DNA of 64,000 bases from Rhizophagus irregularis. Lineage: Eukaryota; Glomeromycota; Glomeromycetes; Glomerales; Glomeraceae. The notes below the pieces were generated by a model that did no database searches, was not told the origin of the DNA, and saw nothing but the letters and a program-made list of their open reading frames with translations. Each line of letters starts with the position of its first letter. The stretch's first letter is position 1. The stretch is from NCBI RefSeq assembly GCF_026210795.1, contig NC_089455.1:806001-870000 (forward strand), given 5' to 3'. Positions 13,991-52,881 of the stretch are shown in pieces. The translations under genes were made by a program, and so were the position numbers.

Positions 13991-15540
13991 ATGAACGTAT
14001 ACCGTATAGAAAAAAATATCTTAAATTGTTCCAATCTTGTTTTTTAAATTCTGTTAGACGTAAAAATGTGCAATCAGTTAAACTGTTGTATATTATACTG
14101 AGTATTTAATATATATTTGAAATATTTAACATTTCAAAGCGGATATTCATCAAAGAATAAACTTTCAAATTTTCACATTTTTGCCAAATATTTAATATAA
14201 AAAATCATGTATACCATATAGAAAAATACATCTTAAATTGTTTCAATCTTGTTCTTTAAATTTTGTTAAACATAAAAATGTGCAATCAGTTAAACTGTTG
14301 TATATCATATTGAGTATTCAATATATGTTTGAAATATTTACCATTTCAAAGTAGATACAGTGTGTAATAAAAAAAACTGGAATATTATTAATATAATAAA
14401 AATGTGTATTATATGTTCAAAATAAATCTGATTTTCCTTGTGTAAATTGAATAATAAATCTATAACCAAGATCTATATTATGATATCTTTTAAAGTTATA
14501 ATTACTTTATTATTTTTTTGAAAAATTTTGCTGTAAATATTTACTTTGAACAGAAAAATATAATAAAAAAATAAATTAAGATTACAAAGCATTTGAATAT
14601 TGAATTTAAATTAAAAACATTCAAATATTATTAAGAATAATGTAAAAAAGTTGATACCAAAAAATCAGCAGTATAGAAATATTTATGGTAGAATAATGAT
14701 GAGAAATTTACTTTTCAAAATTCCTCAATTTTGGTATATAGTAAAAAAGCTAAAAATTATTCAAATTACATAAATGTGTGTAATTCGCTCAAAATAAGTC
14801 CAATTTTTATCATTTAAAATGCAAAATAAACTTGAATATTAGGGCTACATTTTGACATCTTTCATGATCATAATGCTTTTTTACTTCTTGAGAAAATTAA
14901 CTACAAGTGTTGATTTTTGAAGAAAAAATATAATTTGAAATTTGTAAATTTATAATGAATACAAAGTTATTGAAAATTCTCAAATATTATCAAGACCAAT
15001 AGAAAAGTATAAATTAAAAATTTTTTTTGACTATCTACTACACTTTATGCAAAGAAATACACATTAATTTTAAATTAGTTATAAAAAAGTTTTAATCTAA
15101 AAAATTATTATTATAAGTTTAATTATAAAAAAATTACTGCATTAAACACTATTTTTAATTTACCATTGATAAAATCTACAGGTTTTCAGCTTTTGAATAA
15201 GCTATTTTACATATAATTTGGTGCAATCATCATAGTATTACAGACAATTTTTTAATTCTGATTTTTTTTTTTACACATTGTATTCATCAAAAAATAAACT
15301 TTCAAATTTTCACACTTTTGCCAAATATTTAATATAAAAATAATGTATATCATATAGAAAAAAACATCTTAAATTATTCCAATTTTGTTCTTTAGATTCT
15401 ATTAGACATAAAAATGTGTAATCAGTTAAACTGTTGTATATCATACCAAGCATTCAATATATGTTTGAAATATTTACCATTTCAAAGCGGATATTCATCA
15501 AGGAAATAAAATTTTGAATTTTCATACTTTCATCTTCTGA
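13991..15540. repeat. 212-bp tandem repeat, about three copies
   Basis: A unit containing CGTATACCGTATAG, GTGCAATCAGTTAAACTGTTG and ATTTCAAAGCGGATATTCATC recurs with a period of 212 bp (anchor positions 13996 and 14208). The third copy has its anchor at 15344. Subtracting the intervening 923-bp insertion plus its 2-bp duplication gives a spacing of 211 bp, so the third copy was originally adjacent. A partial fourth copy begins near 15490. No coding capacity is evident. Confidence 0.85.
14358..15280. mobile_element. 923-bp TA-flanked non-autonomous element inside a tandem repeat
   Basis: Left end CAGTGTGTAATAAAAAAAA; right end, read inward, CAATGTGTAAAAAAAAAAA; flanked by TA at 14356-14357 and 15281-15282. 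The insertion site is known exactly because sister repeat copies keep the empty site: GGATATTCATC is intact in copy 1, while here it is GATA, insertion, TATTCATC. The interior has no open frame. It is most consistent with the Tc1/mariner superfamily. Confidence 0.92.
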
Positions 15541-16576
15541 GGTAACTAAAGCTCACCAAATATTTATAAATACTTCATTTTATCTACTGCAAGTTGCACA
15601 ATTTGATTTAAATGTTTTTTATTTTCTGAATGAAGTTTATTTACTATGTTAAAAGTGAAATCAATTAACTTTTTGAGTCCTTCATTGGCTATATGTCTCT
15701 TTTCTCTTGAAAGTCATCTTCATTATTTTCATGTTTTTTCTTTATTGGTAAAGCATATTGTTCTGTAAATTCAGAACTTAAATTCCATTTTATCATCAAC
15801 AATGATTCAAATGAATCTTTGTTACCTATTACTTTTTAATAGATAATATATGAATATTTAAAATACTGTATAAATGATATCTTTATGAAACTTACCTAAA
15901 CAATCGACTAATTATAATACCAAAGTTGAAAGCTTTTGCAATTTTTTGTCAGTCTATTTTCCTTCTGATTTTATTATTATTTCATATGTATGATAGTTCT
16001 TTGCTTCAATTTTAAAAGATTGAAGAATATCTAACAGTTTTAACTTATACTCGCCACAAAACAGTATTTGGTCAAAATGAGAAATAATAAACAAAGAAAT
16101 ATGTTTTGTAATGAAGTTTAAAGATACAATATATCTGCATCAGAAAAATCTATATTTCACAGAAGATTGCATTTAAATGCAAAATCTTTTATAGTGTCAG
16201 AAGAAATGTAATCCCGATTCTTCACAACAAATCTAAAAAGTACTTTCTAAATATGTTCCAATATTGGTTCTACATATGAACCTTATTTGGATGTTGAGAA
16301 TGAAAATTTATGTGGAATTTGTAATGATAAATTATCCTTCTTTTCTTTTTTTATTTTCTGCTCATTTAATGAATTTATGTTTTGATTTTCTTTAATATTT
16401 GTAGAAACTTCATGTTGTTTATTGTTTGAATTTTACGATTGTATGGAATTTGTCCTATAAGAGATATTGTACTGAACAACATGAGCTTTTTTGAACATAG
16501 CTTGGTATTCTTTATTGACAACCTTTAATATTTTTGCTTTTTCAGAATTATTAACATTAACCAATGCATTTAGATA
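15541..16576 (-). pseudogene. Decayed coding-like segment, probable distal part of an old CMC/KDZ transposase
   Basis: On the minus strand short runs of plausible protein appear in shifting frames, for example EFTEQYALPIKKKHENN near 15740, a segment with FCGEYKLKLLDILQSF near 16020, and a Lys-rich helix (NNSEKAKILKVVNKEYQ) near 16530. I do not recognise these segments themselves. They are collinear, on the same strand, with the relic at 37643-38100 once the hAT-2 element and the 16585 MITE are removed, so I infer one ancient gene. Many stops and shifts make it non-functional. Confidence 0.4.
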
Positions 16577-16584
16577 CTTGTATT

Positions 16585-17346
16585 TAGAGTTCCGAACAGG
16601 TTGACCAAATTCAGGTAACCTGACAGGTTGACCTGAATTTTTCAGGTCAGGTTTAGCAATTGCAATTCAGCATCAGTTCAGGTTGTAACATCAGTATAAC
16701 CTGAATGACCTGTTGATCTGAAACTATGATTTTATATAATAAGTGAGTTATGGTATTATAATTCACTTTTTATATTGATTTTATATAATAAAAGTGAATT
16801 GCGATATTGGGATTCACTTTTTTATATTGATTTTATATAATAAAAGTGAATTGCGGTATCGGAATTCACTTTTTTATATCGATTTTATATATAAAAAGTG
16901 AATTGCGGTATCGGAATTTACTTTTTTATATTGATTTTATATATAAAAAGTGAATTGCGGTATAGGAATTCACTTTTTTATATTGATTTTATATATAAAA
17001 AGTGAATTGCGGTATAGGAATTCACTTTTTTATATCAATTTTATATATAAAAAGTGAATTGCGGTATCGGAATTTACTTTTTTATATTGATTTTATATTT
17101 AAAAAATTAGTTGCGGTATTGCGATTCACCTTTTTATATGATTTTAATATAAAAAACTGAATCACAATATTTCAAAAAAAATGTTTTGCACCATTTTTTT
17201 TTGATATTTTAATATAAATCCTGAAAATTTTCAGGTTTCAGTTCAGGTCAGGTCAAACAGATAATCTGACCTGACCTGACCTGAAAAAAAATTTCAGGTC
17301 AGGTTTATCAATTAACCTGACCTGATCTAACCCATTTGGAACTTTA
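16585..17346. mobile_element. 762-bp hAT-type MITE carrying a minisatellite
   Basis: Left end TAGAGTTCCGAACAGG; right end, read inward, TAAAGTTCCAAATGG. Flanking 8-mers cttgtatt (16577-16584) and ctcgtatt (17347-17354) differ at one base, consistent with an aged 8-bp hAT target duplication. Both subterminal regions are dense in CAGGTCAGGT/ACCTGACCTG, and the centre is a 52-bp tandem array. No coding capacity. The host sequence is the decayed minus-strand gene on either side. Confidence 0.82.
16728..17165. repeat. 52-bp palindromic minisatellite, about 8 copies
   Basis: Unit begins GATTTTATATATAAAAAGTG and contains AAAAGTGAATT and AATTCACTTTT as inverted arms around GCGGTATCGG or GCGGTATAGG, so every unit can form its own hairpin. 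About eight and a half copies are present, the outermost ones most diverged, as expected for array growth from the middle. Confidence 0.9.
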
Positions 17347-17833
17347 CTCGTATTCTTTACGTACAGCTTCATCATTTTTCATCAAAGTTTGTAATGAAGA
17401 CTTCAAGACCTGTTTTTTATTTTTTTTCATGAGAGGTTTTAATTAGAGGTTGGAATCGACCAAAAAAACCTTAATTGATTAATAATCGATTAACTGGCTA
17501 TCATAATCGAATAATAATCGACTAATTAATCGAATAATAATCGACTAATTAATCGATTAATTAATCGATTAACATATAAATCTTGCGTTAATTATTTTAT
17601 TTATTTTATCTAGTTTAACAATTTTAACCCACGCCATAATTTATAATTAGTTTTTCAAAATATATTTTATTTATATGAATACTTAATTACAGAATTTAAT
17701 AAATAATGTTAAAAAATAAATAAATAAACTAAAATATGTAAATACTTAATAAAGAAGTATTAATTTACTTTTTCTAAATTTAATAAATAAAAATTATTAG
17801 TTTACTATAAGAAAACATTTCAATTATGTAATT

Positions 17834-18416
17834 AGAATATTACCTTATTAGCAGCAAGTGTAAACATATCAATATATTTTGAATTTCTTTTAATGAAAAG
17901 AATTTCTTGAAAAACTTTTGGACTAAGGCATATTTGTTTATTTGTCATGCTATTTCCAGCATCTGAAAATAAGCGTTCACTAGGAACAGAGGTTGCTGGG
18001 ATAGACAAGCATTTGCGTGCTAATATTGATAGTATGGGAAATCTTTGCTTATTGTGATTCCACTACTCAAAGGGATTAGTATTAGGAACTGCTTTTTCTG
18101 TTTTATTTTCATCAAGATAATTATCAACTTCATTTGCTTTTTTTTTACATTTTTGACTTTTATGAAGTGTATTAAAAATTGAATCTTCCGCTAATTGATT
18201 TCTGGTTGATGGGGCTTCATCAGGCAATTCTTCATCTTGATTTATTTTAAATTTTAAATCTTCATATATATGCCGTAGTTCAATTTCAGTTTTTGTTTTT
18301 AATTCATCATCTGTTAAAAAATCAAGATCTTTGTACTGAGGATCTAAAATTGTTAAAAAAAGTGCATATTGATTAGGTTTTTGCCAATAATGATTAAGTG
18401 ACTTAATGATTGTTAC
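17834..18416 (-). pseudogene. hAT-2 transposase, C-terminal part
   Basis: Continuation of the hAT-2 transposase left of the 17-kb insertion. Reading leftward from 18416 it gives SLNHYWQKPNQYALFLTILD, an acidic linker, an in-frame TAG at about 18064 just before a WNHNKQRFP segment, and then the hATC dimerisation region IPATSVPSERLFSDAGN with conserved spacing. It joins in frame to the part at 35458-37384 when the insertion and one target-duplication copy are removed. Only one nonsense codon is seen in this part. Confidence 0.85.
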
Positions 18417-18759
18417 TAAGGTTGCTTGCCGAAATCTGTTTGGCCTAATACCGAAAGGTGAAACCTCTTATATAGTGCTGAAATGCCAAAACGCTGAAAC
18501 TGTGAAACCTGTCAAAATTGCGAAACTGCCAAAACATGCCAAAACTTCTATAATAGGTTTCTCTGTAGTTTTAGCATAGTTGATCATAAGATTTGCATAT
18601 AGTTACGCCAAGTTACACGAATTAATAATATAATTTAGATGATTAAATAATCTACAGATAAAAAATTAAACTTCAATATTTTACCGTCGTCTTAGTTCTT
18701 TTAAGCTTTATCTACTTTACAGAAACCTTGAATTTTTAAACAATACCGAATTGATATAA

Positions 18760-19540
18760 TAATGATGTTAAATAAATATCGTGGCGATATCGATTTGCAA
18801 ATGATATCATTATGATATCGCAATGATATCATTTCAATATTAATTCAATATATCGAAATGATATCGTAAAGATATTTGTTTGAAAAAATATCAGATCGAT
18901 ATCATTTCGATATTGTTATAACAACAATGAATTTTTTGAAAAATGGGAAGTAAATACGATATTAATATGATATCGTTCCAACATTAATTCAATATCAATA
19001 TGATATCGTAAAGATATCACTTTATAATTATCTAATCGACATCATAACGATATTGACGAAACATCAAATCGATATCATATCGATATTTCGATATTGTTAT
19101 AATAATAATGAAAAATAGAAAGTAAATACGATATTAATATGATATCGTTCCAACATTAATTCAATATCAATATGATATCGTAAAGATATCACTTTATAAT
19201 TATCTAATCGACATCATAACGATATTGACGAAACATCAAATCGATATCATATCGATATTTCGATATTGTTATAACAATAATGAAAAATAGAAAGTAAATA
19301 CGATATTAATATGATATCGTTCTAACATTAATTCAATATCAATATGATATCGTAAAGAAATCACTTTATAATTATCTAATCGATATTGACAAATAACGAA
19401 ACGATATCATTTTGATATTGTTATAACAATAATGATTTTTTTTTAATAAATGCAATATCAATATAATATTATTTTAATATTAATTCAGTATCAAAATAAT
19501 ATCAAAATGATATTATCTATAAAAATATCAAATCAATCAA
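18760..19540. repeat. Left subterminal array, 172-bp units
   Basis: The unit starting TAAATACGATATTAATATGA recurs at 18951, 19123 and 19295, a constant 172-bp period, within a wider field of GATATC and CGATAT words. The third copy degrades after about 19420. It mirrors the array at 30360-31310 near the other end of the CACTA-like element. Confidence 0.85.
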
Positions 19541-21539
19541 ATATCGTTTTATAATATTTTAATAATTTGTAATCTAATTTAAAAGTTAATTTCAATAGAT
19601 TTAAGTTACCGGTTATTTATTACAATAACAATTTTAATTACAGATAAAGTATACATTAGTTTAAATATTATATAACAGATAAAAAAAATATCAATAAATC
19701 TATAATAAACTAATTCAATAAATTAGAATTATGAGTTAAATTGGTGATGTAAGTCAAAACATTATGCCTTAATACTCCAGAATCATAACTCATCAACCCA
19801 AAGTTGAGGATTAACCGCACTAATTGCTTTAGATTCAGCGACACTGCCCAAGTTGGATGGGGTGTCGCAGGTACGCTTTAAGAAGGACTCGCTACGACTC
19901 TATTGCAAAAAGGATAAGTATATTCGAAAACACCAGACATAAATTCACCTCAGAAGTTTGGCGGGAAACCCCTATAAACAACTGCAGTTTCATCATTACC
20001 AAAATCATTGAATTTAGGGATACAATGAAAAAGTTCATGAGAATGACGGCTTTAAAAAAAAAATACAAATATATTCTCAACTTTGACAATTCACCCTTAT
20101 TCTTTGGCCTGGAATTCTCATATGACTGCATTATTGTTGTTTGTAATTTGATCCATTGAATCCACCATAAATTGCCTGGCAAAGCGAACTTTTATTAGAC
20201 AACTATAGCTTCATCAACAAACGTTGCAATGTGTTTGGACGAATGACATCCTGTTTAATAAATTTTAAATGGGCAAACGTGGACCTAAAACCCATTATAA
20301 GGTAGGCTGCAAGAAGTGCAAAGCAACCTACCTAACCCACGAGTGGGTCTAAGGGTTAGGGAATTAATTACACGCCAAACACACACAAGTTGGTATGGAG
20401 TTAAAAGTCTTACAAACTAAAAATTATTTTTGCCACTTAATTCTCCAATAATCAATGTTATAAAAAAGTTACTTACGACTTAAGCCTACTTAATTATATA
20501 TAAAACGACACTTCGAACAGACAGAGCTTTCATGATATATGAGAATATCCCATCATGCCTATTTTAACCTTTGATTAAAGGATTTTCGTTGCGTTAATTA
20601 TATAAGCTTTACGCCTATATAACATGAACTTACACCTATATAATTCAAGTCCGCCTTTTCCTATAACACACTATGCACGACGGCAAACGGTATAGGAGGA
20701 AGACTCTACTTTCAGAAAGAAAGTTTTTTTTTTCAAAAAAAAAACGTACAAATAAATAGCGGTTAAATAAAATAGTGGTTAAATTGACTTTTTAGGAATT
20801 AATAGGCCTTATAGCCTTATATTATACGCGATCATTTAATATACGCGATCATTTAATCAGACAATTTATTAAATTTGGTATTACACGAACTTGATCAACC
20901 TGATAATTATTTAGTCTCTTTATAGGTGGATATTTCTTAAATTATCACCTGAACTTTTCAATTTTTTGCAGAATCGAAGATGGAAACCGGAAAAGTATTC
21001 TGATTCAGAATTTTTTTTTAAGAAATGTGTTTGTTATTTTGTAAATTACCAGTCAGAATTGGCTTAAACTTTAAAGTTCTTACTTTACGCAAATGTTACG
21101 CAAATGTATTCTTTTTGATCTGTATAAGAACGTCAAATATATAGAGATATTTAGGCCGTATATACTAAAGAAGAAACGTCATATAATAACCATTCCATTT
21201 TTAACAAAACAACAATTACTTTTTAAACTTGAAAATGTTATATCTTAGACAAACATTTTATAGTTTTATACATCCATTTTATTTTATATTATTATCACTC
21301 GACATTATGGTATAATGTTTAGAATAATGATGTTTCATATTATCATTTGCTTGTAAAATTTACTAAATTTATTCAATGTAATATCGTTATAAAATGCATA
21401 ATTTTATAAAAAAATTAGAGCGTTTGCTAAGATTTATAACTATGTATAATTTAATATTATTATTAATAACTATGATTAAAGGATATGAAGTATCAGTACA
21501 GTATAAATAAAATAACTTACCGATAAAGAATCAACGATC
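19541..21539. other. Unassigned segment of the CACTA-like element
   Basis: I recognise no gene. The part 19740-20720 is less AT-rich than its surroundings and has frames on both strands without motifs. At 20331-20361 CCTAACCCACGAGTGGGTC and then AAGGGTTAGG form a short hairpin. A 17-bp sequence containing ATACGCGATCATTTAAT is repeated directly at 20824-20858. No tRNA-type A or B box was seen. Confidence 0.5.
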
Positions 21540-22333
21540 TTATTTCCGCTCCTAGAAGGGATCGTTAATTTTTTGGTCATATTATCTAATTCTTTAACGG
21601 CGGACAAATTTTTTCCGTTTCACGAAACCTTAAAGGTTTCTCTTACGAAATCAACCAAGGTATTGAATCCTCCATTTCTTGTTAATTCTGAAATATTAAC
21701 AGCTACAAGCTGTCGGCTTAAAATCTTTTGGACAAATTCTTCATCAACGTAATCTATAAGTTCCTTTTGAGATAAACTTCCAGTAGATGCTCTATAATTA
21801 AATTAATAATTAATACAAACAGCACTATTTGGTTAGCTACGAAACAATTAAATAAATACCTGTTTTTTCTTATTTCTTTAAATTCTTCTACAGAAGTTAA
21901 AATAATTTGGTTAAACTTATTTCTGAAATCGATAAAAAATTTTCGGGTTTTTTCGAGGTAGCTTTTTAGCTTCGTTCGAATGTATTTTTATTTTGAAAAT
22001 TTTTGTTATCAACTCATCAAAAACTTCACCACGCGGACTTCTTGCACGTAAAAAAAGACATGACACTTTCGTCCCATAGACGAATTTTATCCTAAAATAT
22101 TAAAAATACATTATTTAAAAGATTTAGACATAATAAAATCATGTTAATTTAATACTTACGTCCGTAATTTTACTGGATGATGAGATAGCAACATCCGTAT
22201 TGTTCATTTCTAGTGCCAATCTTAAAATTTCCAGATGGTCGACGAGCCAAGCAACTATTTCTAAATTTGACTTTGATTGAAATACTTCGGGTTTTTTATG
22301 ATCTTCCGTCTTACTCTCATCATCATCATCATT

Positions 22334-22377
<44 letters not shown>

Positions 22378-22690
22378 TACTTCTTTTTTCATTTACTACT
22401 ATAACTTCTTTATCAGCAGATTCGGCAGCTTCTTTATTACTATTTTTACTTTTTTTCATCAACTGATTGGCTTTCTCAATGTCAATATCTCTTCTTTTTT
22501 TCGTAATTTGTTTTCTTTTCGATCCTATTATACATATTTTTGGTATTTATTAATTATTCTTCTTACATATAACTATATAAGCAAAACTTACTATAAATTT
22601 ACAAAAGAGTTATATCTACATACCTCCTTCAACTTCCATTTCTTGATTATCATCAGACGATTTATTAGGTAATTTACGTTTAGTCGTCAT
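21540..22690 (-). pseudogene. Unrecognised gene with poly-aspartate tract, frameshifted
   Basis: Reads leftward from ATG at 22690. Exon 1 starts MTTKRKLPNKSSDDNQEMEV and ends at a GTATGT donor near 22622. Exon 2, to 22160, has a Lys/Arg-rich start (SKRKQITKKRRD), a run of 14 aspartates encoded by (GAT)n, one Asn and further Asp, then a helix-like segment LEIVAWLVDHLEILRLALEM. Exon 3 starts at 22091 after a consensus acceptor but shifts frame in a T-run near 22055 and again near 21915. Exon 4, from about 21793, reads RASTGSLSQKELIDYVDEEF and continues to a stop near 21628. Splice sites are good and the lesions are both in homopolymers. I do not recognise the family. Its position inside the CACTA-like element makes it a passenger or second element gene. 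Confidence 0.5.
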
Positions 22691-23913
22691 AATATAAAAA
22701 AAAAATATGAGCGAAAAAAAAAGTGGAACAACCTTTTTGTTTAAAAGTAGGTGATATTTATCGAGAAAATATGAATGAATAAAAAATGTAGAGCAACTTT
22801 CTTGCTCAAAAAAGTAGATGATAAATATTGAATGAACAAAAAAAGGGCGAGGCTTATCATGATATAATTTTGAGATTTTAGCTATTGTAATTATGATTGT
22901 AGTATTTAATTGGAAAATATACATAATCTTAATATCATTGTGTATCGTGTAGAATGCAGGATCAGTTAAAAATATCAGGAGATGGGAAAACTAAAAATTA
23001 TGATTTCTAGAAGATCGAAAATTAAATTTAATTAATATAAATAAATTATTACAATATCGAATTTCATTCAGTGAAATTTTTTTTTACATGGAAGATTACC
23101 TCAAATCGATTTTACGGTTTCAAATTTATTATATTTTTCAGGCTATACGTGGAATGAGAAGAAAAATAATGGAAAGGTGAGAAGAAAAATGATCGGTAGA
23201 AGAAAAGGAGTGAGAAGAAAAATGATCGGTAGAAGAAAAGGAGTGAGAAGAAATTAATGGAATATTACGTTTTGAATTTCCATTTTTATGTGTGATACGA
23301 TGACATGCAAGAAAAAAAAATTTATAAGATCCTGGTACTCTTGACGGAAAAATAACTGAGCCAATGAACCATGTGATGATCCTATCTAACTAAGCCATAT
23401 CTATTTAGTGTAAGCCTCTGGATTGATTACATAAAAAATAGATGGGATCTACAGTAGTAGATATTTGAAAAATACCAATATATTGATTGAAATTGTGAAA
23501 TTACTGATAGGAAAGAGTTTTAATACATATTGGTGTAATCAAATATCGGTATATAAAGTATCAACTATTCAAATAATACAAGTCATGTGCAACTAATCAT
23601 TTGTTTAATTGTTCGATAATATTCCTAAAACGGAGTAAATTAAGATCGAATTAAGTTCGTTACGGTGTAAATTAAGGTTAGCTTAAAATTCAGTATAATT
23701 GTAATATATCATCGCAGTGTAATATGAAATATAATCAAGGAAGGACATGCGTGATTTAAAATATTATATTTTATAATTATAAAGTATAAAGATAACATTT
23801 TAACTCATTTTTTATTAATAGAATTTGTTTATTTATTTTTATTTATATATATTAATTAATGCAGTATTACTATAATTATATTTTTAAAATAAATTGATAA
23901 ATCAAAAAATTGA
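22691..23913. other. Non-coding stretch with a short tandem duplication
   Basis: No gene recognised. A 33-bp unit starting GTGAGAAGAAAAATGATCGG is repeated 2.3 times at 23177-23255. Elsewhere there are only AT-rich tracts. Confidence 0.5.
23177..23255 (+). repeat. 33-bp tandem repeat, 2.3 copies
   Basis: Exact period of 33 bp, with unit starts at 23177, 23210 and 23243. The unit is purine-rich and contains ATGATCGGTAGAAGAAAAGG. The copies are nearly identical, so the duplication is young. Confidence 0.9.
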
Positions 23914-24323
23914 GTGTATTCAATGTTAAATAAATTAATTAAAGATGATTGCATTAGAACTAAAAAATTTAGGCAAGATCGTAAAAATAAACTCAAAGAA
24001 ATCAAAAAAAAATATGTGTGTATTCAATGTTAAATAAATTAATTAAAGATGATTGCATTAGAACTAGACAAGATCGTAAAAATAAACTCAAAGAAATCAA
24101 AAAAAAATTATGTGTGTATTCATTGTTAAATAAATTAATTAAGGATGATTGCATTAGAACTAAAAAATTTAGACAAGATCGTAAAAATAAACTCAAAGAA
24201 ATCAAAAAAAAATTATGTGTGTATTCAATGTTAAATAAATTAATTAAGGATGATTGCATTAGAACTAAAAAATTTAGACAAGATCGTAAAAATAAACTCA
24301 AAGAAATCATAATAAATTTATTA
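23914..24323 (+). repeat. Four-copy repeat of about 105 bp, mostly frame-preserving
   Basis: Unit begins GTGTATTCAATGTTAAATAA and recurs at 23914, 24018, 24114 and 24219, spacings 104, 96 and 105. The last two spacings are multiples of three, so the plus strand stays open from copy 2 through copy 4 as a 35-residue repeat (YSMLNKLIKDDCIRTKKFRQ and so on). The minus strand also stays open. It lies directly upstream of the SANT-RS pseudogene. There is no evidence that it is translated. Confidence 0.85.
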
Positions 24324-24377
24324 TAAATATAGAGCCTTTTCTTGACATTTTCCCCATCAAACTAATAATATTTAATA

Positions 24378-24965
24378 ATGGCAGCATTAAACTTAAACGC
24401 AAATCTTCCAGTATACATTCAATGGCCCGATGATGCTGCTTTGACCTTAATTCAGCGTCGTCGGGCCTATCAGCCCTTATTCACCACAACGAGGTTACAT
24501 AACTAAAACCAATTATGGCGTGGAATTGCTCGTGATATACGAAACAACCACATATTCAGGCCAACTAGAAAACAATGTAGAGAGAAATGGAATGCGCTAA
24601 AGTCGGGGTACGAGAATTTAGAGAGATTAATAAACAGAAATCCTGAAGGATATCCCACTCGTACCCCGACTTTGCATGACGAGAGATTCCACCAGGAACT
24701 CTCTGACGAGTTTTGGAGAGTGGAGCGTAAGTATTTATTATTTAACTGATTTTTTCATTAATTCATTGCATTTATATTAATACTTGCTTTGTTTTAAGCA
24801 TTAGTCCGGGCCGCCCGGAGAAATAGGATGGATCGTAGGACATACGAGTATAGAGAGCGCAGGCGCTCTCGCTCCCGATCCCCCTACTACCACCGAGAGC
24901 GCAGGCGCTCTCGTTCTCGATCTCCCTACCACCGAGAGCGCGGGCGCTCTCACCGACGTCATTGA
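24378..24965 (+). pseudogene. SANT/Myb-like plus Arg-Ser-rich protein, copy 1, one nonsense codon
   Basis: Exon 1 is 24378-24726 and exon 2 is 24799-24965, with consensus GTAAGT and AAG splice sites. Together they encode 171 residues apart from an in-frame TAA at 24504-24506 (codon 43). The N-terminal half resembles a Myb/SANT-like (trihelix) DNA-binding domain, with the recognition-helix-like segment KQCREKWNALKSGYENL. The C-terminal half is Arg/Ser-rich with RSRSRSP repeats, like SR-protein tails. It is paralogous to 34512-35090, sharing MAAL at the start, the KWNALK.GYENL core, the intron position and the RS tail. Exon 2 is much more GC-rich than its surroundings because of CGC/CGG Arg codons. 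With only one lesion it may be recently inactivated, or translated from a downstream start. Confidence 0.75.
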
Positions 24966-25433
24966 TTTTTTATTTTTTATTTTATTATTTTAATATATTT
25001 TATTTTATTTTATTATTATGTTTTATTTTATTTTAATATTATGTTTTATTTTATTTTATTATTATATGTTTTATTTTATTATATGTTTTATTTTATTTAA
25101 TTATTATTATGTTTATATTATTATATGTTTTATTTTATTTTATTATTATGTTTTATATTATTATATATTTTATTTTATTTTCTGATTCAATAAATGACTA
25201 TTTTCGATAATATTATTTGTCATACCAATTGTCATTAACCGGTATAATTGACCCTAAATTTTGTGTAGCCAAATCGGCAGTAATTTAACCGAATTGATTA
25301 CTTAATTGCATTTTTTTTTTGCCGACACACTAATAGTATTTAATAAATTTAGTTCTAATTGAATTTATAACAGATACTGTGGTAGTGGTACCACTGGTAA
25401 TTATGTTCTAATTAAATTTAAATTGTTATAAAG
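24966..25433. other. Low-complexity spacer
   Basis: About 24970-25185 is a degenerate (TTTTATTTTATTATTATG)n array. The rest is AT-rich spacer before the transposase start at 25434. The 3' untranslated region of the SANT-RS copy and the promoter of the transposase presumably lie here. Confidence 0.55.
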
Positions 25434-28400: not shown

Positions 28401-29047
28401 GATACAAAAAGTAAGTATTTTATTGCATATAATAGTACATGTTTGATATTTATATTTACTAATCTTTTAATTTAGTTATATCTCCAGTAAACTTTATTTC
28501 CAATATTTCATTAAAAAAAAGAATGCCAAAGCAGGAACGTGATAAACTTCTTTTAACTTTACATAATTTTAAAACTGAATTGTTTTTATCTTATGTGGAT
28601 ATGAAGTTTGAGGCGGCACTTATAAACTCTTCAATTAGTTGGTACAAATTTGCATCATATATGATTGAAGAAGAAAATGGTATCCTTTCAAAAGTTCACC
28701 TACATCTCGATGATTTTATCACAATTTATGAAGAAGATCATGAAGAATCTTATGCAATAATCAAAGGTATCTTTCAACATAAGGGTAACAATAACAAATA
28801 TTATGCATTTATTGTTGTAGATTGGTTTGAAGATACTATGGTTGAACATTCAGTATTAAAATGTCCACTTTACCGTCTCCAAGCAACAGGAGATAAATGG
28901 AAACGTATTTTTCCAATTACTGTAATAGATAATGTTCAAAAAGTACATTTTATTCATAATTGTAATTCAGAAAGGTGCCAACTACCAAATCATGATACTA
29001 CAAATAGAATTTGGATAAAAAATAATTTTTATTTTACAGCCATATAA
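25434..29047 (+). pseudogene. CMC/Plavaka-KDZ-type transposase, several frameshifts
   Basis: Five exons: 25434-26405, 26489-27227, 27306-27973, 28044-28410, 28477-29047. The N-terminus has a long Asp/Glu/Asn-rich stretch. The core shows marks of the CACTA/Plavaka/KDZ group: YRSGDFVYY, the aspartate-containing LFLDLYYDDFGTF, GVYVQFGNMP, the second aspartate region TADLPQGNDMTG followed by the zinc-binding pair GCRTCK, and DVYHATAGKIGRLL. Breaks: a 1-nt shift in the G-run near 26360, compensating shifts near 27050 and 27090, and another near 27610 after LLKLTCELF. Frames resume cleanly after each, so the gene is recently broken or the assembly has homopolymer errors. It is presumed to be the mobilising enzyme of the 12.6-kb CACTA-like element. 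Family assignment rests on remembered motif patterns. Confidence 0.75.
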
Positions 29048-30359
29048 TTATATTAATTATATAAATATAATAAAATAATTATTTTAATTTGTATCGTATA
29101 AAATTTTAACCAATAAAATCATATGCATGATGTAATAATAAATTAAAATTAACCAATTAAAATCACTTTAATTACATGCATGTGATATCATGCATGTGAT
29201 ATCTAAAAATAGCTAAAATTCGCGTTTATTAATGAGATTTTTTTTGTTTATTTTCAAAAATACGCTTTTCTCTTGTCTTTTATATTAATACTTTACGGTA
29301 TTTTAGTTCGTCTCTTCTTTTTTCTTTTTAAAGTATACTTTAATTATCTTTTTACAATATTAACAATACTTTGGGACACTTTAGTTTATATATTCAACAT
29401 AGTAAGACACCCACATACGAAAAGCAAGAATAAAAGCAAGAATAAAGAAAAGAAAATGTACCCGCCACTCACATACGAAAGAAAAGAATAAAAGAAAGGA
29501 AAATGTACCCACCTACCCACATACAAAAGAGAAAAAAGCCGTTTTTTAAATAAATAGTGGAGCTGTTAAGCAAGGTATGAAAATAGGATATACGCGTATT
29601 TTTCATATTTTTTTTACAATATGTTGTGGTTTGAGTATTTTTTTGTTAGACTGTGGTATAAATGTGAATATATTTTTCAACGGCCATGTATCTATTGCTT
29701 GTTAAATATATTTGCAATTTCTTTGTTAGACTGTGGTATTACAATATGAAGTGTGAATATATTTTTCAACGGCCATGTATCTATTGCTTGTTAAATATAT
29801 TTGCAATTTCTTTTGTAATATTTGCTTTAGCCTGGAAGAAAATGTTGTAAAATAGGGCTGGATATTTATGGCATTTTCCACCTTCCAATTACTTTGTCCG
29901 GGGGTAGCCTGACAATTTGTCGTTGTCCGTCAGTCGTAGCAACCAGCATTTTTTTACAATATTATGATTTTAAGAAACAAAACACTTTCAAAAAAATTTA
30001 AAGAAAGAACTAACTTAAAAATATTATCATTTTTATTATTCTTTACAAAATCCCGGAATTACCTGCTCTAACTATTATCCCAAGGTTATGTATTAAATTT
30101 TAAATATATTTTACAAAGAGTACATTTTATTAATCATGATTGTTTTTTTTATTTTTTTTATATATATATATATATATTTTAAAATTGAAAATGACGTATC
30201 CATCCACTCACATACGAGAAGAAAAGAATAAAAAAGAGAAGAAAAGAATAAAAAAAAAGGAAGAAAAGAAACGTACTCCACTCACCCATAATAATCCACT
30301 AATAAAAAATTATTATTATTAATGTATAATAAATAATAAACATATATTACAATAAAAAT
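29048..30359. other. Non-coding interval after the transposase
   Basis: No gene. GATATCATGCATGTGATATC near 29186 is a perfect palindrome. About 29645-29814 is a tandem duplication of an 80-90 bp unit containing TTTTTCAACGGCCATGTATC. Purine-rich blocks containing ACATACGA(G)AAGAAAAGAATAAAA recur near 29415, 29470 and 30210. The interval leads into the right subterminal array. Confidence 0.55.
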
Positions 30360-31310
30360 ATTTTTGTGATGTTAATTCGGTGTTAATATAATATCATTAC
30401 GATGTAGTTACGATATTAAATAAATGTAAAACATTTTTTGTAATATTAATTCGATATTAATATGATATTATTATGATGTAGTTACGATATCAAATAAAAT
30501 TGTAATATTAATTCAATGTTAATACGACATCACTACGATGTGGCTACGATATCGAATAGATGTAAAATATTTTTAATATTTTTGCAATATTAATTCGATG
30601 TTAATATGATATCACTACGATATGGCTATGATGTGGTTACGATATCAAATAAAATGTCAAATATTTTGCAATATTAATTCGATGTTAATATGATATCACT
30701 ACGATGTGGTTACGATATCAAATAAAATATCAAATATTTTGTAATATTAATTCAATATTAATACGACATCACTACGATGTGGTTACGATATCAAATAGAT
30801 AAAATATTTTTGAATATTAATTCGATGTTAATATGATATCAATACGATGTGATTACGATATCAAATAAAATGTCAAATATTTTGTAATATTAATTCAATG
30901 TTAATACGACATCACTACGATGTGGTTACGATATCAAATAGATGTAAAATATTTTTGCAATATTAATTCGATGTTAATATGATATCACTACGATGTGGTT
31001 ACGATATCAAATAAAATGTCAAATATTTTGTAATATTAATTCAATGTTAATACGACATGGTTACGATATCAAATAAATGTCAAATATTTTTGTAATATTA
31101 ATTCAATGTTAATACGACATCACTACGATGTGATTACGTGATAATATTTACATCGCATAATGATCGCTGCGATATCGCAGAGATATCGAACTAATCAATG
31201 TCGAATAAATATAGTTACGACTAACTTAACGACGTCGAATCTATTTTTTATCAAAATATCGTAATGATATCGTAATGATATCATTGCAATATCTAATCAA
31301 TATCGATTGT
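30360..31310. repeat. Right subterminal array, about 70-bp units
   Basis: About ten units each contain AATATTAATTC, then GATGTTAATATGATATCA or the variant AATGTTAATACGACATCA, then CTACGATGTGGTTACGATAT. The two variants tend to alternate, so the higher-order unit may be a dimer of roughly 140 bp. The array faces the 18760-19540 array across the CACTA-like element. Confidence 0.85.
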
Positions 31311-31541
31311 AAACTCCAAGTTTCAGCAAAGTAGTGGTAGAATTTTCATTTCTAACTCCCATATTAATATTATGATATTACATGTCTTTGCAGTTTTTTT
31401 AAGTAGCTTATATTCATTAAAGGAAAATGCGTAACATGCATTTAATAAACCCAATTCTGTCATCTCCTTTAACACTGAACTAAAGTTTCTTTTACTTTCT
31501 TCCATTTTCTTAATAATAAAATTAATAATAAACTGTTTCAA

Positions 31542-33850
31542 ATGACTGATCACATAGAAGATTCACCCATTAAAAAGAAAAATAGAGAAGGTCAGCCACC
31601 TAATAGCATTTGGAAAGATATTAATAAAGGAGAAGCTGTTGGTTCTGGCAAATTTGCCGCCTCCTGCAAGTACTGTAAGAATACATGGTCACGCGGTGAA
31701 GTTTCAAAGCTCGAAGAGCATCTTTCAAACTATTGTCCAGATGCGCCAGCAGCAGTTGTTAGAAAGTATATGACTAAAGTAATGGAACGGCAAGATAAGT
31801 CCAAGTCATCCAAAAAAAGAAAATACTCTGAAGGTCAAAGTAACATGAATGATTACCATGATTCAACAGAGCTTAACGAATAAAGATGTACACGAATTAA
31901 TCGTGTATTAGTTAAATTTTTTATTGCGTGTGGAATTGCATTTAGAATAGTAAAACATCTCTTTTTCATCAATTTTATAAAAGAGCTTAATGTCGGGTAC
32001 AATACACCAACAAGGGAAGTATTAGTAAATCAACTACTTGAACGTGAATTAGCTCAAGTGAACTTTAAAGTTAATTCTGAGCTTGAAAAGGAAACGAATT
32101 TAACGTTAGGTTTGTTAAATTAAATAGGCTATCATACGTAATTTTTTATTTAATCTTACTTATTATATAATATTAATTTATAATTTAGTCTTTGATGGTT
32201 GGACGTCTGGTACACATCGTTCAATTTGGAACTTCATTGTAATGACTCCGTCACATAAAGAATATCTTTATCAACTTTCTGATTTGTCTGAAAATTCGCA
32301 CACTGCAGAATATTTAGTTACAGACTTACAGTAATTGAAAAGGTTATAGAAGGTATTGGAGAAAATTGAATATGTGCTATAGTTTTCGATAATGCGGGCA
32401 ATGTTCGTAATGCACGAAAAATTATACATGAGAATCATTCAACGATTGAGAATGTGTGATGCGTTGCACATTCTATCAATTTAATTGCATGCGATATCGT
32501 CAAGAAGAAGTTTGGGAAACGTTTATTAAAACATGTTAATATTTTGACAACCTTTTTTAAAAGTTCTCATCAGGCTAATGCAAAACTTGCTCAAATAATT
32601 AAAGAAAAAGGAATTAGTGGAGGAGGATTAAAATTATATTGCAAGACACACTGGACTACTGCTAGTGAATCCGTAAATTCAGTAATAAATTTGGAATCAG
32701 CACTAAAAGAAATGGCCAGTGATCACGATAAAGTGCTAACAAATGACAAAATAAAACCGATTATTCAATCGAAATTTTTTTTTCAAATTTACGAGTTCTT
32801 GGATTTGTTCTAGATCCTCTAAGAAAAGCGGTACTTTTATTAGAATCGAGAAGAGCTACACTTGCAGATTGTTTCCTGAGCATGGCAAGATTTGCAGCTA
32901 CATTAAAAAATTTACCCAAATCATTAAATCCTGCATTCCGAAGTCATTGTATCAAAGTAATAAATGAAAGATTTGATGAGTTCGATGATGATAAGTATAT
33001 TACTTTTTTTTTATGGATCTCAGATTTAGAAACGTGCTACTTAAAAAATGCGCCCTCATGAGAATTATCAAATGTGCAGCTTCAATCAGGAAAAATTTAG
33101 GTTTTGATCATTACGAAGCTGAAACTTTATGTGATCAAATACAGAAATATATTAATGAGCAAGAACCATTTGACCTAGATATCAGTTTTGCTAAAGATAA
33201 TCCCATAAATTGGTGAAAATATATTAATACCAAACCAGAACCAGATGTTCTGCCAAGAATTGCAAGTTATCTATTTGCAATATGTCCTAACTCAGCAACT
33301 TGCGAATGTGGATTTTTGACTTTAGGATGGCTATTTCATAAACGTCGCTTAAATCTTAATGTGGATAAACTAGAATCCATGTGCAAATTAATTTTGTATT
33401 GGAAATCTAATTCAAAAACTGAACTTGGATTTTATGGAATTGATCAAAAAAAGAATACTCGTCTTAGTGATGATGAGATCAATATACGTATTGCAGAAGC
33501 TTTTGCAGAAAATGATTTGACTATAATATAATGAGGAGCAAGCTTCTACTCAGAGATTAACTACAAGCGGCGAAACAATACCTGAAGACAATTGCCGTGT
33601 AGTAATCGAAAGTCTATGGATTGATCAATTTATTAATTTATCGCATGATTCAATTACTAGTGAAATCGGCAATATTCCAAGAGATATATTGGATGATTCA
33701 GATGAAAATAATGCAGAAGATGATGAAGTTGATGATAGTGGTAATAACAAGAGAGCTGGGGAAGGTGACTATGATTATGATATAGATGATGTATTAGGTA
33801 TGGATGATGGTGATAATAATGACGATAATTATGATGATAATGAGGAATAA
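31542..33850 (+). pseudogene. BED-finger hAT transposase relic (presumed hAT-3 transposase)
   Basis: The first open segment (31542-31883) encodes a BED zinc finger, CKYCKNTWSRGEVSKLEEHL with downstream Cys. It is followed, with stops and shifts, by a region containing VFDGWTSGTHRSIWNFIVM (first catalytic region, near 32190), VAHSINLIACD near 32465, DPLRKAVLLLESRRATLADC near 32813 and the hATC-like RIASYLFAICPNSATCECGF near 33255. In the last, the usual Glu-Arg of SxxxER is changed. The tail is strongly acidic and ends at a TAA at 33848-33850. This hAT lineage differs from hAT-1 and hAT-2. It is clearly dead, with at least four in-frame stops. Confidence 0.8.
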
Positions 33851-34511
33851 TAATAATGAGAAATAATTACAATAGTTAATCCAATGAGAATTAATTCTAA
33901 TATCATGTGATTTAAATAACGATACTATTTAGGAAATAAATGATGTAATTATGCAGGGCAAAATATTCGTGATCAAAGTCCAGTTAACATATAATTATGC
34001 AGGCAATTGTAATTTTATATTATATTTTAAAATATTGCAATTTAATTAAGGAATAAGCATAAGCATATTATATTTTAAAAATAGTGCAATTTAATTAAGG
34101 AATAAGGATAAGCATATTATATTTTAAAAATAGTGCAATTTAATTAAGGAATAAGGATAAGCATATTATATTAGAATCAATAAGTTTTAAGGACTTCGTT
34201 AATTAAATTTATTACATTAGATCAATAAATTTTAAGAACTGCGTTACAAAAAAATTTAGAACTGCGTTAATTAAATTTATTACATTAGAATCAAAACTGT
34301 GTTTATTTTGTTACAAATACTTTAATTATGTAGAATGTTATTATGTTCATCAGTTCATGTTTTAAACATTATAACGAATTTTAAAATTAGTATAAATATT
34401 ATGAAATTTGAAGTATATAAGATTTTTTTTTTGCAATTCAAAACTAAATTGTATTTTAATTTTCAAATTGTATTTAATTTTCAAGTTACGAAAAAATCAT
34501 AAAAATAAAAA
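33851..34511. other. Spacer with a 49-bp tandem repeat
   Basis: No gene. About 34015-34175 holds three copies of a 49-bp unit containing GCAATTTAATTAAGGAATAA (anchors 34037, 34086, 34135). Downstream, ATTAAATTTATTACATTAGA occurs twice near 34200 and 34269. The remainder leads to the SANT-RS gene. Confidence 0.6.
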
Positions 34512-35090
34512 ATGGCGGCATTAATACCTTTTGTTCCACCGCTACCACCAGTATTCCAATGGATGATTAACGCTGCTAGGCAATTAATCGCCGAGCGAAG
34601 AAATATACATCAGCAATTCGAAAGAATTTCAAACCGTCATCATGTAAATGCATTGACAATAATAGCAAATAGGGTGTTTGCTGCAACCGGATTTGCAGCG
34701 ACACCCAGGCAATGCTCTACAAAATGGAATGCTCTCAAACGAGGTTATGAAAATCTCAGTAGGATAATAAATAATAATGATGACGACATTCCTATTGTAA
34801 GCCCAAATAGTTTTGATAGAGCGTGTTTCGCTGATATGAATATGAATGATGAATTTTGGCTACAAACTGGTAATTATTATTAATTATTATTTTAAATTAA
34901 TTTTATTTAGGCAATTCATTCAATTCATTAATATTTTTATTGGATTTTAGATCTGTTTAGACGAGAGTATCGACAGCAACATGCTGCGTATGATCGATGT
35001 CGATATGAATATAGATTGCGAAGGAAAAGAAGGAGGTCGCGATCTAGGTCTCGATCAAGAAGTAGAGATAGAAGTAGAGATAGAAGATGA
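34512..35090 (+). CDS. SANT/Myb-like DNA-binding plus Arg-Ser-rich protein, copy 2 (intact)
   Basis: Exons 34512-34869 and 34951-35090 give 165 residues. The N-terminal 115 residues carry a Myb/SANT-like (trihelix type) fold signature with the helix RQCSTKWNALKRGYENLSRI. The C-terminal 45 residues are Arg/Ser-rich, with RSRSRSRSRSRDRSRD-type repeats. Beyond the TGA at 35088 the same RS/RD repeat continues in frame to 35184, so this stop may be a nonsense change (a sister unit has TGG) that only trims the tail. It is the only apparently intact cargo gene in the 17-kb element and is paralogous to the copy at 24378. A DNA-binding accessory role for transposition or expression is an inference; the RS tail could bind RNA or splicing factors. 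Confidence 0.78.
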
Positions 35091-35457
35091 GACAGAAGTA
35101 GAGATAGAAGATGGGATAGAAGTAGAGATAGAAGAAGAGGTAGAAGCAGGTCCTCACATAGAAGATAAAGATATTAAATTTTAATTTTTATTATATTTTT
35201 AATCGTATATTTTATTAGTTTAATATTAAATATTATAAAATAAATATTTACATACAAAAAATTATATTGTTTTTATTCTTATAAATTGTTTAAATGCCGA
35301 AACTCTAATTAAATCATATAGAAAGTATTGCCGAAACGCCAAAACAGTTTCGGCAAGTTACGGCAGTTTCACGATTTTGATAGGTTTCGCAGTTTCGGCA
35401 TTTCTTGATGATTTTGCGAAACTAGTTTGCAAATTCTAGTTTTGGCAAGCAACCTTA

Positions 35458-37384
35458 ATTGTCACTAATACTCTTTTAATTATTTGGTCTGAATTCGCAG
35501 ATTCTGGTTGAGATTTCTGTAATATATTTTCAGAAATATTTTGTGATTTCCTTGATGAATCACTATAATTAATTTTCTTTACTTTTTTATGTAAATTGTG
35601 TTTATGAGGCCTAATAATTATTGGTTCATTGCTTGTTTCATCTGATTCTGAATCATCTGAAATTTTATTTTCTTCTTCTGACTCATCAGACAGATTTTCT
35701 TTCATATTTTCTAATAAAAAACATTAGGTAAATTTATTATATATTAAAAAAAATCTAAATATATAAAATTAACTTACCACTATCATCAATAATAGTAATA
35801 TTATCAAGATTGATATCATTTAAATCTTCAATTTCAGTATCGTAATTTTCTTTTAATTTGGTCTTATAAATTAGTTTTAATGTTTCAACAATTGGTAATA
35901 TTGATGAAATTGTTACATATTCAACTCCACTAAAATAAGTTGTCATTTCATCAAATGGTTTAAAAAGCTTGCATAGTTCTTTTAAGAAAATCCATTCTTC
36001 TTCACAAAGCATAATTTTTTGCAATCGTTCTCCATCAATTTTATTACTTCTATCATCCTCAAGATGTAAAGTTGCATTTAGACGAATAATTGGCTTTTTT
36101 AATTTAATTAACCGTTTTCATGAATTATATTTAGAATTCCAATGTGTTGGTACTTCATTAATATTTTTAAGTATATTTGTAGTTAAATTTTCAAGTGGTT
36201 CATCATTAGAATCATTATCTAAAGTTTGGCTTTTTTTATTTAAATCATTTTGTACTTCTTGAAGTCATTCAGATTGTTTTGGTGATTGAAAAAACTTGAC
36301 TAGCTTTCTATAATGTTTAACTTGTTTACTAATTGACTTTAAAGTATTAATAACTGTTAACTGTAACGTATGTGCTCTGGCATGTAATATTTGTATCTTA
36401 TCGTTCTTTTGATTTAAAATATTAACGAGTTTGCTTTCGTATTACTTACATTGATATCATTCTGCTTTTAGAATAATGTTGATACCACGAATGATATTAC
36501 TATATATTTTTCCAAATATTTAGATATAACTACTGCTGTATGTGGATATTGTATGCTTTCAATGGTAATTAGCATATCATAAGGCTTAAAATTTTCATCT
36601 ACCTAATGTCCAGTAATTCCAATATATCCTGCTTTACTTCTTGCCATCCATAGGTCTGTTGTAATTGAAATAAATTCACAAGTACTAATTATTAATGATA
36701 ACAATTCTTTAATTCCAAGTTTGTATACATCTGTAATTAAAGTTTTGATCATTTTATCATAAGGGATAGAATATGATGGATCTAATCCTAGAAGAAGTTT
36801 TCTAAATCTATTACTTTTTAAGATATGAAAAGGTTGGGAATCAGTGATAATAAATTCAAGCAATAATATATTTAATTTATGTTGATGTGATTTTCCATGA
36901 GATTTTGCTTTACCAAATATTGAGTCAATTTTCGCTTGTTGTACTTTTGGTTCCTGATAATGTAAAGTATCACAATTAATTTATTTTATTATTTATAATA
37001 AATAAAAAATTTAAATACTACCTCTTGTTCTTCTCCTTCAGTTATATTATGCAATGAATTTAGGTGATATTTCATATTTAACGTAAAACTAAGATATTTA
37101 TAAGTTGCGTTACATGGTTCTTCTTTCCCATTTTTTGTTATAGACATTATACATCGTACTTTTCCATCATCAATTCTTTCAAAATACTTCCATACAAAGC
37201 TCTTTTCGGACTTAGATAATTTTAACTTTTTCACTTGCTGCTGTTGACTATTAAATGATGATCTTTTAGAAGTTGTAGTGGAAGATGCAAACTTTGATGA
37301 CCCAGATAAAGATTCTTCAATATCTTCAATATTCCTATAGTCAATATATTCAGAAAAATCATCATTTGGTTCATTATCATCCAT
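35458..37384 (-). pseudogene. hAT-2 transposase, N-terminal and middle parts
   Basis: Reads leftward from ATG at 37384. An acidic N-terminus and poly-Gln precede a BED-like domain (FVWKYFERIDDGKVRC with downstream Cys and HLNSLH). After an intron-like gap come a segment with LLGLDPSYSIPYDKMIK and the first catalytic region FISITTDLWMARSKAGY. The middle (36600-36030) is broken by many stops. Open segments resume at 36024-35755 (KLFKPFDEMTTYFSGVEY) and 35705-35458, where the 17-kb element interrupts after QIIKRVLVT. The rest lies at 17834-18416. The gene is dead because of the middle lesions as well as the insertion. Confidence 0.82.
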
Positions 37385-37642
37385 ATTAAATAGCCACTTT
37401 ATAAAGATGTAATATAAAATAAAGGTTTATTTTAAAACAATATTTATTATTATTATTATTATTAAAAACAATTTATAGTTTTAAAACAATATTTAAAATA
37501 ATAATTTTTTTTTACGAAGTCAATCTAACTAAATATATTTAAAAAAATCTATTTTGAGATAATCTATATTTTTAATCGATTAATCGATTTTTGAGGTATC
37601 TTAATTGATTAACCTTAATCGATTCCAACCTCTAGTTTTAAT

Positions 37643-38100
37643 TTAAGCAGATTTTTGATAGTTGCTTCTAATGATTCTTTAATATTATCCTTGAGATTTC
37701 CTTTGAGCCATTTGGATAATTTAGTCATTGTAAAAAATATTGCATGAATGTCAAATGTGGCAATTCTTGACATGTAATTTTATACAAGATTTCAGGTGAC
37801 TATTTAAAGAAATCTAATTGGTATATCTAAGGTTCTGCATTATAATAATAATCTGATATAATGACTATTTTTAAATTATCCAGTTTACTTAGCAGTTTAA
37901 AATGAGGGAAGTAAGAAATTTGATGAAAATATTCATCAAAAATCTTCAGCAATTCTGTTTCTCTGACTTCCTTCAAAATATCTTATATAAAATCCAATTG
38001 ATATTTGAAGAGACCGAGATCAATATAATGCATATAATCTGGAATGCAAGCTTTATAAATATTTAAATTTCTGTGAATTTATTAATCAAGTTTTAGTTTA
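37643..38100 (-). pseudogene. Old CMC/KDZ-type transposase relic split by hAT-2
   Basis: Minus-strand reading gives NIYKACIPDYMHYIDLGLFK followed by YQLDF, a stop, KEVRETELLKIFDEYF and HQISYFPHFKLLSK. The MHxxDLGLF segment is characteristic of CMC/KDZ-like transposase families that I associate with glomeromycete genomes. Several in-frame stops follow. The hAT-2 target duplication sits directly downstream, so hAT-2 landed in this gene. The likely continuation is the decayed sequence at 15541-17443. This is the oldest layer of the nest. Confidence 0.65.

Positions 38101-48791: not shown

Positions 48792-52881
<4,090 letters not shown>

Follow-up and report, generated by a model that had tools for sequence, protein, structure and literature searches.

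Successive insertion of three DNA transposons at one locus of Rhizophagus irregularis, the innermost a Plavaka-related element with a predicted BAH-like segment

A stretch of 64,000 nucleotides of Rhizophagus irregularis (hereinafter the window: positions 806001-870000 of contig C27) contains several mobile elements lodged within one another, which raises the question of whether they arrived one after another and, if so, in what order. Comparison of the window with the genome that it comes from (a single strain; 146.7 Mb in 32 contigs) makes us nearly certain that three cut-and-paste DNA transposons inserted successively at this one locus. From the outside inward, the layers are a decayed gene, the element hAT-2 (17444-37634), a second hAT (18417-35457) and an element related to Plavaka (18715-31331). 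The nest is real, and the order of insertion is borne out by within-genome empty sites and by sequence divergence; we hold this with the same near certainty. An earlier note, made from the sequence alone, described a four-layer nested transposon; the three nested transposons stand, and the outermost layer is more probably a decayed gene than a transposon. The transposons and the coding region of the second hAT are as follows.

17444-37634, minus strand: hAT-2, whole span, with its own pieces at 17444-18416 and 35458-37634 (target-site duplication, hAT domains, empty site in C1)
18417-35457, plus strand: second hAT, whole span, with its own pieces at 18417-18714 and 31332-35457, about 4.4 kb (target-site duplication, insert-free copies, empty site in C17)
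31479-33528, plus strand: fragmented transposase gene of the second hAT, now reduced to short frames (zf-BED at E=5.6e-4, just under the cut-off; matches to the frames of copy L006)
18715-31331, plus strand: Plavaka-related element, 12,617 bp (empty sites, copies on C15, C5 and C28, end pattern)

The evidence that carries this conclusion consists of insertion-free paralogues, which are found on C1 for hAT-2, on C17 for the second hAT and at no fewer than 23 loci for the innermost element; all of these empty sites are paralogous and come from the same genome as the window. Because the joined flanks recur in paralogues, the junctions are not attributable to chance. The nesting and the relative chronology claimed previously are upheld, with the chronology being local.

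With respect to hAT-2, the ends TAGAGGTTGGAATCGA and TCGATTCCAACCTCTA are flanked by the exact 8-bp target-site duplication (TSD) gttttaat reported earlier, which we see at 17436-17443 and 37635-37642, and the coding sequence includes a Dimer_Tnp_hAT domain (E=2.1e-17; 17835-18062) and a zf-BED domain (E=6e-6; 36992-37426). With its 8-bp duplication, inverted ends and transposase domains, hAT-2 is a hAT element. A relative on C17, the only near-complete one among the best 40 of 91 candidates, has both ends, its own exact TSD TTTTCCAA and a hAT transposase domain match (E=2.6e-22), and is 80-82% identical to hAT-2 over the longer pieces. This relative is uninterrupted at the site of the second hAT, reading AATTGTTCCTAATACTC where the window has ATTGTTAC, the insert and ATTGTCACTAATACTC; the flanks at 18416 and 35458, whose joining in some hAT-2 copy had been proposed as a check, are accordingly joined in a complete relative.

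The second hAT corresponds to the 17-kb element that was previously placed inside the transposase gene of hAT-2; we recover it at 18417-35457, with the ends TAAGGTTGCTTGCC and GGCAAGCAACCTTA and the TSD attgttac (18409-18416) and attgtcac (35458-35465), which agree in seven of eight bases. The family is abundant, two probes each finding at least 39 further loci (best 40 of 217 and of 187 candidates), and, among the nine copies with both ends read, eight show an exact 8-bp TSD, the failure being L007; L012 and L014, in which the true right end was not read, were left out of this tally. In copy L006, the counterparts of 31479-33528 are two frames that are still open, 214 and 572 residues long; the longer one matches DUF659 (E=6.3e-21) and Dimer_Tnp_hAT (E=3e-5), both over the cut-off, and this copy also shows zf-BED just under the cut-off (E=9.4e-4). 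The 8-bp TSD, together with the hAT transposase domains of L006, identifies this element as a hAT.

The earlier note had the second hAT split by a further element without giving the junction; the borders, 18715 and 31331, are now set by insert-free joins, and TA is duplicated at 18713-18714 and 31332-31333. Position 18417-18714 is directly joined to 31332 onward, with a 2-bp overlap, at 22 or more loci common to the listings of the two probes, and the same join is present in all 11 fetched copies, 10 of which are among the 22. Uninterrupted copies of the kind that it was suggested to seek thus exist for the second hAT and, on C17, for hAT-2.

Divergence tells the same story. At 163 of 4393 positions (3.7%) the second hAT of the window differs from a consensus of eight copies, which themselves show differences of 0.02-1.84%, whereas the innermost element departs at 5 of 2274 (0.22%) from a consensus built on 10 other copies, two of them spanning only part of the region. 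The series from hAT-2 (about 20% from its nearest relative) through the second hAT (3.7%) to the innermost element (0.2%) fits the nesting, as a comparison across different families in small samples. Most of the changes in the second hAT (119 of 163) are C>T or G>A, and CpG positions are changed in 56 of 297 cases vs 107 of 4096 for other positions. R. irregularis transposons are described as generally highly CG-methylated in PMC8647823, and C-to-T decay of methylated CpG would account for this bias. We do not consider the cause settled because, according to the same source, many hAT copies, as well as older and short ones, are low in CG methylation.

The two inner families also occur in the reverse arrangement. 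On C5 (L015, L017, L018), a member of the second-hAT family is lodged 105 bp into a copy of the innermost family and is flanked by an exact TSD, ATGATATC. Therefore, the order of insertion is a property of the locus and not of the families, whose active periods probably overlapped, and this reverse nest is a caution against judging how old a family is by one nest alone.

Taken together, the borders, the duplications, the paralogous empty sites and a divergence in agreement with the order are established, and they support the following scenario, which we consider very probable. hAT-2 struck a host gene of a small family close to the 5' end, and a miniature inverted-repeat transposable element (MITE) of the hAT type struck this gene in a separate event; the multi-copy second hAT then entered the transposase gene of hAT-2; and, as the last step, the 12.6-kb Plavaka-related element entered the second hAT, with duplication of TA. 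Each element was presumably mobilised by its own kind of transposase. Several observations weigh against this scenario. The empty site on C1 is about 70% identical, that is, a paralogue rather than an allele, and hAT-2 has a single near-complete relative, at 80-82%, among the candidates examined. The divergences span different families, with consensuses built from few copies chosen by score, and the low CG methylation of many hAT copies, mentioned above, bears on the decay of the second hAT. For the reverse nest on C5, the two divergences (about 1.7% for the inserted hAT, 1.45% for the host element) give no order. Finally, four of 11 end pairs of the innermost family come without a 2-bp duplication.

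What, then, was the sequence into which hAT-2 inserted? Two parts of it are recognisable.

15385-17442, minus strand: larger part of the decayed host gene, interrupted by the MITE (tblastn with the open reading frames (ORFs) of C1, 36-62% amino acid identity; DNA 70% identical to C1 over 15367-16419)
37635-37728, minus strand: first codons of the decayed host gene, severed by hAT-2 (70% amino acid identity over 33 residues to the start of the C1 ORF)

With all 35 candidates scored, the DNA of 15200-16585 has a single long relative genome-wide, which lies on C1 and shows 70% identity. The C1 matches to 15367-16419, 16388-16544, 17348-17406 and 37635-37736 are collinear within about 1.6 kb, the last beginning 23 bases after the end of the preceding one; therefore, C1 lacks both hAT-2 and the hAT MITE of 16585-17346. 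The C1 relative is open for 359 and 160 residues, whereas the window copy, whose Met codon was located by eye at 37728 on the minus strand, some 31 codons before the hAT-2 cut, contains stops. On the left, coding homology of the outermost layer covers about 15385-17442; on the right, it runs from 37635 to about 37736 and not to 38100.

The outermost layer had been taken for a relic of a CMC/KDZ transposase, which would make the nest four transposons deep. This layer does lie in DNA rich in transposable elements, the likeness to CMC/KDZ was noted on first reading, and a transposase that has no Pfam model is conceivable; in a Pfam comparison extended to E=1, neither ORF of the C1 relative matches a transposase, a missing match that is itself no proof. 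The family is small: all 30 candidates were scored and gave 16 genome matches, and once the query's match to itself and four in the window are set aside, the remaining 11 reach at best 50% identity. Neither inverted ends nor a duplication came to light around the gene, in the absence of a systematic search, and the predicted structure of its product is all-helical, with a confidence (mean predicted local distance difference test score, pLDDT, 45.7) too low for a structure search. We consider a transposon origin of this layer unlikely. Because of the small family and the absence of a Pfam transposase match up to E=1, the most fitting description of the layer is a decayed gene belonging to a small protein family. 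An R..AH motif in its product, seen by eye, is reminiscent of HEPN domains. Just upstream, at 13981-14357, the 3' portion of this gene recurs as two diverged fragments (86 and 91% identical to parts of 15281-15530), and the end of a dispersed repeat adjoins it at 15200-15290 (31 short genome matches).

The decayed gene also harbours an insertion that the earlier note overlooked.

16585-17346, no strand assigned: hAT-type MITE with a 52-bp satellite at 16733-17155 (ends read; empty site in C1)

Its TSD, cttgtatt at 16577-16584 and ctcgtatt at 17347-17354, is alike in seven of eight positions, the satellite comprises about eight copies, and its left end recurs in at least 39 other copies in the genome (best 40 of 269 candidates scored).

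The nest, as a kind, is ordinary; the interesting part is the innermost lineage and its transposase.

25422-29044, plus strand: Plavaka-related transposase gene in several frames, with inferred exon joins (relatives, profile comparison)
26485-26880, plus strand: BAH-like segment of the transposase (mapped from the relative L060 via the C5 ORF, alignment A2)

Transposase relatives are numerous (at least 150 genome matches, with 147 of 253 candidates scored), and some have longer single frames. The family's own transposase ORFs have no Pfam transposase match, including Plavaka (PF18759). Weak matches to PF18759, both below the cut-off, appear in two of the nine proteins of alignment A2, namely L060 (E=2.5e-5; 24.1 bits against a cut-off of 26.3) and L063 (E=0.0063). 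Moreover, comparison of the A2 profile with five R. irregularis Plavaka proteins using hhalign yields a probability of 86.9% and E=4.2e-6; the 101 aligned columns contain the DLP and CxxC motifs, and the CRxC motif, which follows an invariant DLP, is itself invariant in all seven A2 rows that reach this region. The CMCT group is marked by C(2)C and H(3-4)H motifs lying between the second D and the last E; HxxxH and E are visible here by eye only, in the next frame. A search of viral contigs with the transposase produced two pattern matches, neither of them a relative. The profile similarity in the catalytic region and a 2-bp target duplication (2 or 3 bp being characteristic of Plavaka) are both found in the innermost family, which points to a relationship with Plavaka; the PlavakaA and PlavakaB termini, TGT..ACA and CATCA..TGATG according to PMC12730594, are not found in this family, which has CTTT...AAAG.

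Between the motifs E.W.G..W and YL..GN there are 180 residues in L060 vs 36 in the Plavaka proteins L043 and L044; the spacing patterns missed one or both motifs in L065, a relative of the BAH-bearing type, and in the three remaining Plavaka proteins. The structural model of L060 contains a beta-rich domain in this interval, the BAH-like part being placed at residues 118-261 or thereabouts, and all 50 structural matches shown for this model lie within residues 112-262, with Z of 10.1-13.9. The best of them is to a BAH domain (Z 13.9; root-mean-square deviation 2.6 over 128 residues), and the matched proteins are BAH proteins or BAH-containing enzymes and complexes, among them DNMT1, MET1, DIM2, ZMET2 and MTA1. 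Because the C5 ORF aligns over the BAH-like segment and the window copy is 91% identical to this ORF, the transposase of the innermost family is very likely related to Plavaka and interrupted by a BAH-like insertion; the fold as such is predicted from the model of the relative L060.

The inserted segment could instead be some other small beta-barrel. By sequence, the A2 profile matches no solved chain up to E=10, the Pfam BAH match reaches no better than E=0.11, in one of the nine A2 members, and the model, of low overall confidence (mean pLDDT 56), was made from a relative about 40% identical to the innermost family. Within the model, however, residues 131-250 have block pLDDT values of 71-91, and the 50 matches shown all align at this segment to proteins or complexes with BAH. 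We regard another beta-barrel as improbable and retain the prediction of a BAH fold. Such a segment may contact histones or nucleosomes and thereby bias where the transposase lands or acts.

A bolder and, in our estimation, doubtful proposal is that these elements form an undescribed lineage of the Plavaka type that acquired BAH between the N-terminal region and the catalytic core. Reading host chromatin would then enable the transposase to insert into silenced DNA, for instance old transposons, or to act from there, and repeated reciprocal nesting with hAT elements would explain how the two superfamilies acquired a common Myb/SANT-RS gene. A search of open-licence papers found none naming both Plavaka and BAH, and BAH goes unmentioned in the available portions of PMC12730594 and PMC11244446.

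The sharing of this gene concerns the following features, in both of which the RS-rich stretch comes after a likely intron.

24507-24965, plus strand: Myb/SANT gene and RS-rich stretch in the innermost element, exons inferred (Myb_DNA-bind_4, E=2.5e-6)
34509-35168, plus strand: Myb/SANT gene and RS-rich stretch in the second hAT (Myb_DNA-bind_4, E=5.2e-7)

The Myb/SANT parts at 34509-34880 and 24507-24746 are 46% identical over 56 residues (pair E=9e-17), and the copy in the second hAT has a stop within the RS-rich stretch. TET/JBP genes have passed between transposon superfamilies, according to PMC12730594; by analogy, the Myb/SANT-RS gene may be another accessory gene common to two superfamilies.

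The earlier note had classified the innermost element as CACTA-like with subterminal arrays. The arrays, like the splitting of the second hAT, are indeed present.

18715-18735, plus strand: left inverted end CTTTACAGAAACCTTGAATTT (end reading, end-pattern search, end pairing)
31311-31331, minus strand: right inverted end CTTTGCTGAAACTTGGAGTTT (end reading, end-pattern search, end pairing)
18937-19515, no strand assigned: left subterminal repeats in units of 172 bp and 33 bp, with sequence that is by eye rich in gatatc from about 18780 onward (repeat analysis)
30438-31138, no strand assigned: right subterminal repeat array with a unit of about 73 bp (repeat analysis)

Large size, subterminal arrays and a C(2)C following the second acidic motif of the transposase, as in the CMC-type group, are what an ordinary CACTA/EnSpm element would also display. 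The ends of this element, in contrast, are imperfect inverted repeats, CTTTACAGAAAC and CTTTGCTGAAAC, of the form CTTT...AAAG rather than CACT(A), a pattern with 353 matches in the genome vs 15 for a reversed control. Paired ends share a 2-bp duplication (TA, AA or TT) in seven of 11 cases, the window included, where base composition would lead one to expect agreement in about 9%, i.e., about one of 11; the pairs were picked by spacing from part of the 353-match list. CACTA/EnSpm elements have CACT(A) ends and a 3-bp TSD, and the transposase similarity is to Plavaka. The pairs that lack the duplication are that on C15 and three on C6 (one with a mutated end and two with doubled left ends, which may be mispaired). 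With the ends and the length of the duplication as they are, the CACTA assignment is ruled out as a working classification, and we judge it very improbable; an element related to Plavaka is the reading that we retain.

A nearly complete copy of the innermost element, with extra internal DNA and no adjoining hAT sequence, is present on C15, and long parts of it are found on C5 and C28, where the left part of the C28 copy is absent from the adjacent 9 kb (L020). These copies indicate that the 12.6 kb is one element and not a patchwork. An 89-bp direct duplication within it, at 29637-29813, is present in copies L001 and L002 as well. That the entire 15.5-38 kb arrangement is a single composite element moving as a unit has next to no chance of being true and is rejected: its parts are contiguous and enclosed by hAT-2 ends with an exact TSD, yet the constituents are found separately in the genome (second hAT insert-free in every fetched copy, hAT-2 alone on C17, the innermost family free of hAT on C15), and the 17-kb query found no second copy among the matches listed, a weak test in which two of 866 candidates were scored and the window itself was missed. 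Nor does a further copy of the whole arrangement, which the earlier note named as a refuting observation, appear among the matches listed for the other queries, each limited to the best-scoring candidates.

Several other features lie around the nest. A MITE-like repeat at 38196-38513 recurs in at least 45 other places at E<1e-80 (best 40 of 263 candidates scored), and one such repeat is inserted in the innermost family's copy on C28 (L002 7919-8296). Exons of a phosphofructokinase gene are located at 49039-52418, and a 415-amino-acid open frame with a BED zinc finger at 9705-10952 is possibly a further hAT-derived protein.

The locus illustrates cleanly how DNA transposons can be dated relative to one another in the genome of an arbuscular mycorrhizal fungus, and it exposes a young multi-copy element whose transposase seemingly bears a chromatin-reading domain. 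Some retrotransposons have chromodomain integrases, and a transposase with BAH would, if the prediction is true, be their DNA-transposon counterpart. It would then also make chromatin-guided insertion testable in a host whose transposons are, on the above account (PMC8647823), generally highly CG-methylated. Plavaka, CMC and hAT families have already been reported from R. irregularis, about half of whose genome is repetitive, as stated in PMC11075540.

With the hAT superfamily, the two outer elements between them share several features (8-bp TSD, short inverted ends, zf-BED, DUF659 and the hAT C-terminal dimerisation domain); the second hAT differs in adding the Myb/SANT gene with its RS-rich stretch, and hAT-2 differs in having one near-complete relative among the matches listed. 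The innermost family resembles Plavaka, a member of the CMCT group as described in PMC12730594, in the weak Pfam matches of its relatives, the profile similarity, the 2-bp duplications and the C(2)C after the second acidic motif, and differs in its termini, in the lack of a Plavaka match in its own ORFs and in the roughly 144 extra residues with a predicted BAH-like fold. With ESTA, the TA-duplicating CMCT elements of rust fungi (described in PMC12730594), it shares the TA duplication at the window site. The innermost family differs from ESTA, as compared by description only, in that AA or TT may also be duplicated.

Plant genomes contain nested blocks of transposable elements from which insertions have been relatively dated. 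The same logic of relative dating applies here; unlike those blocks, this nest consists of DNA transposons, and the same two families nest both ways in one genome.

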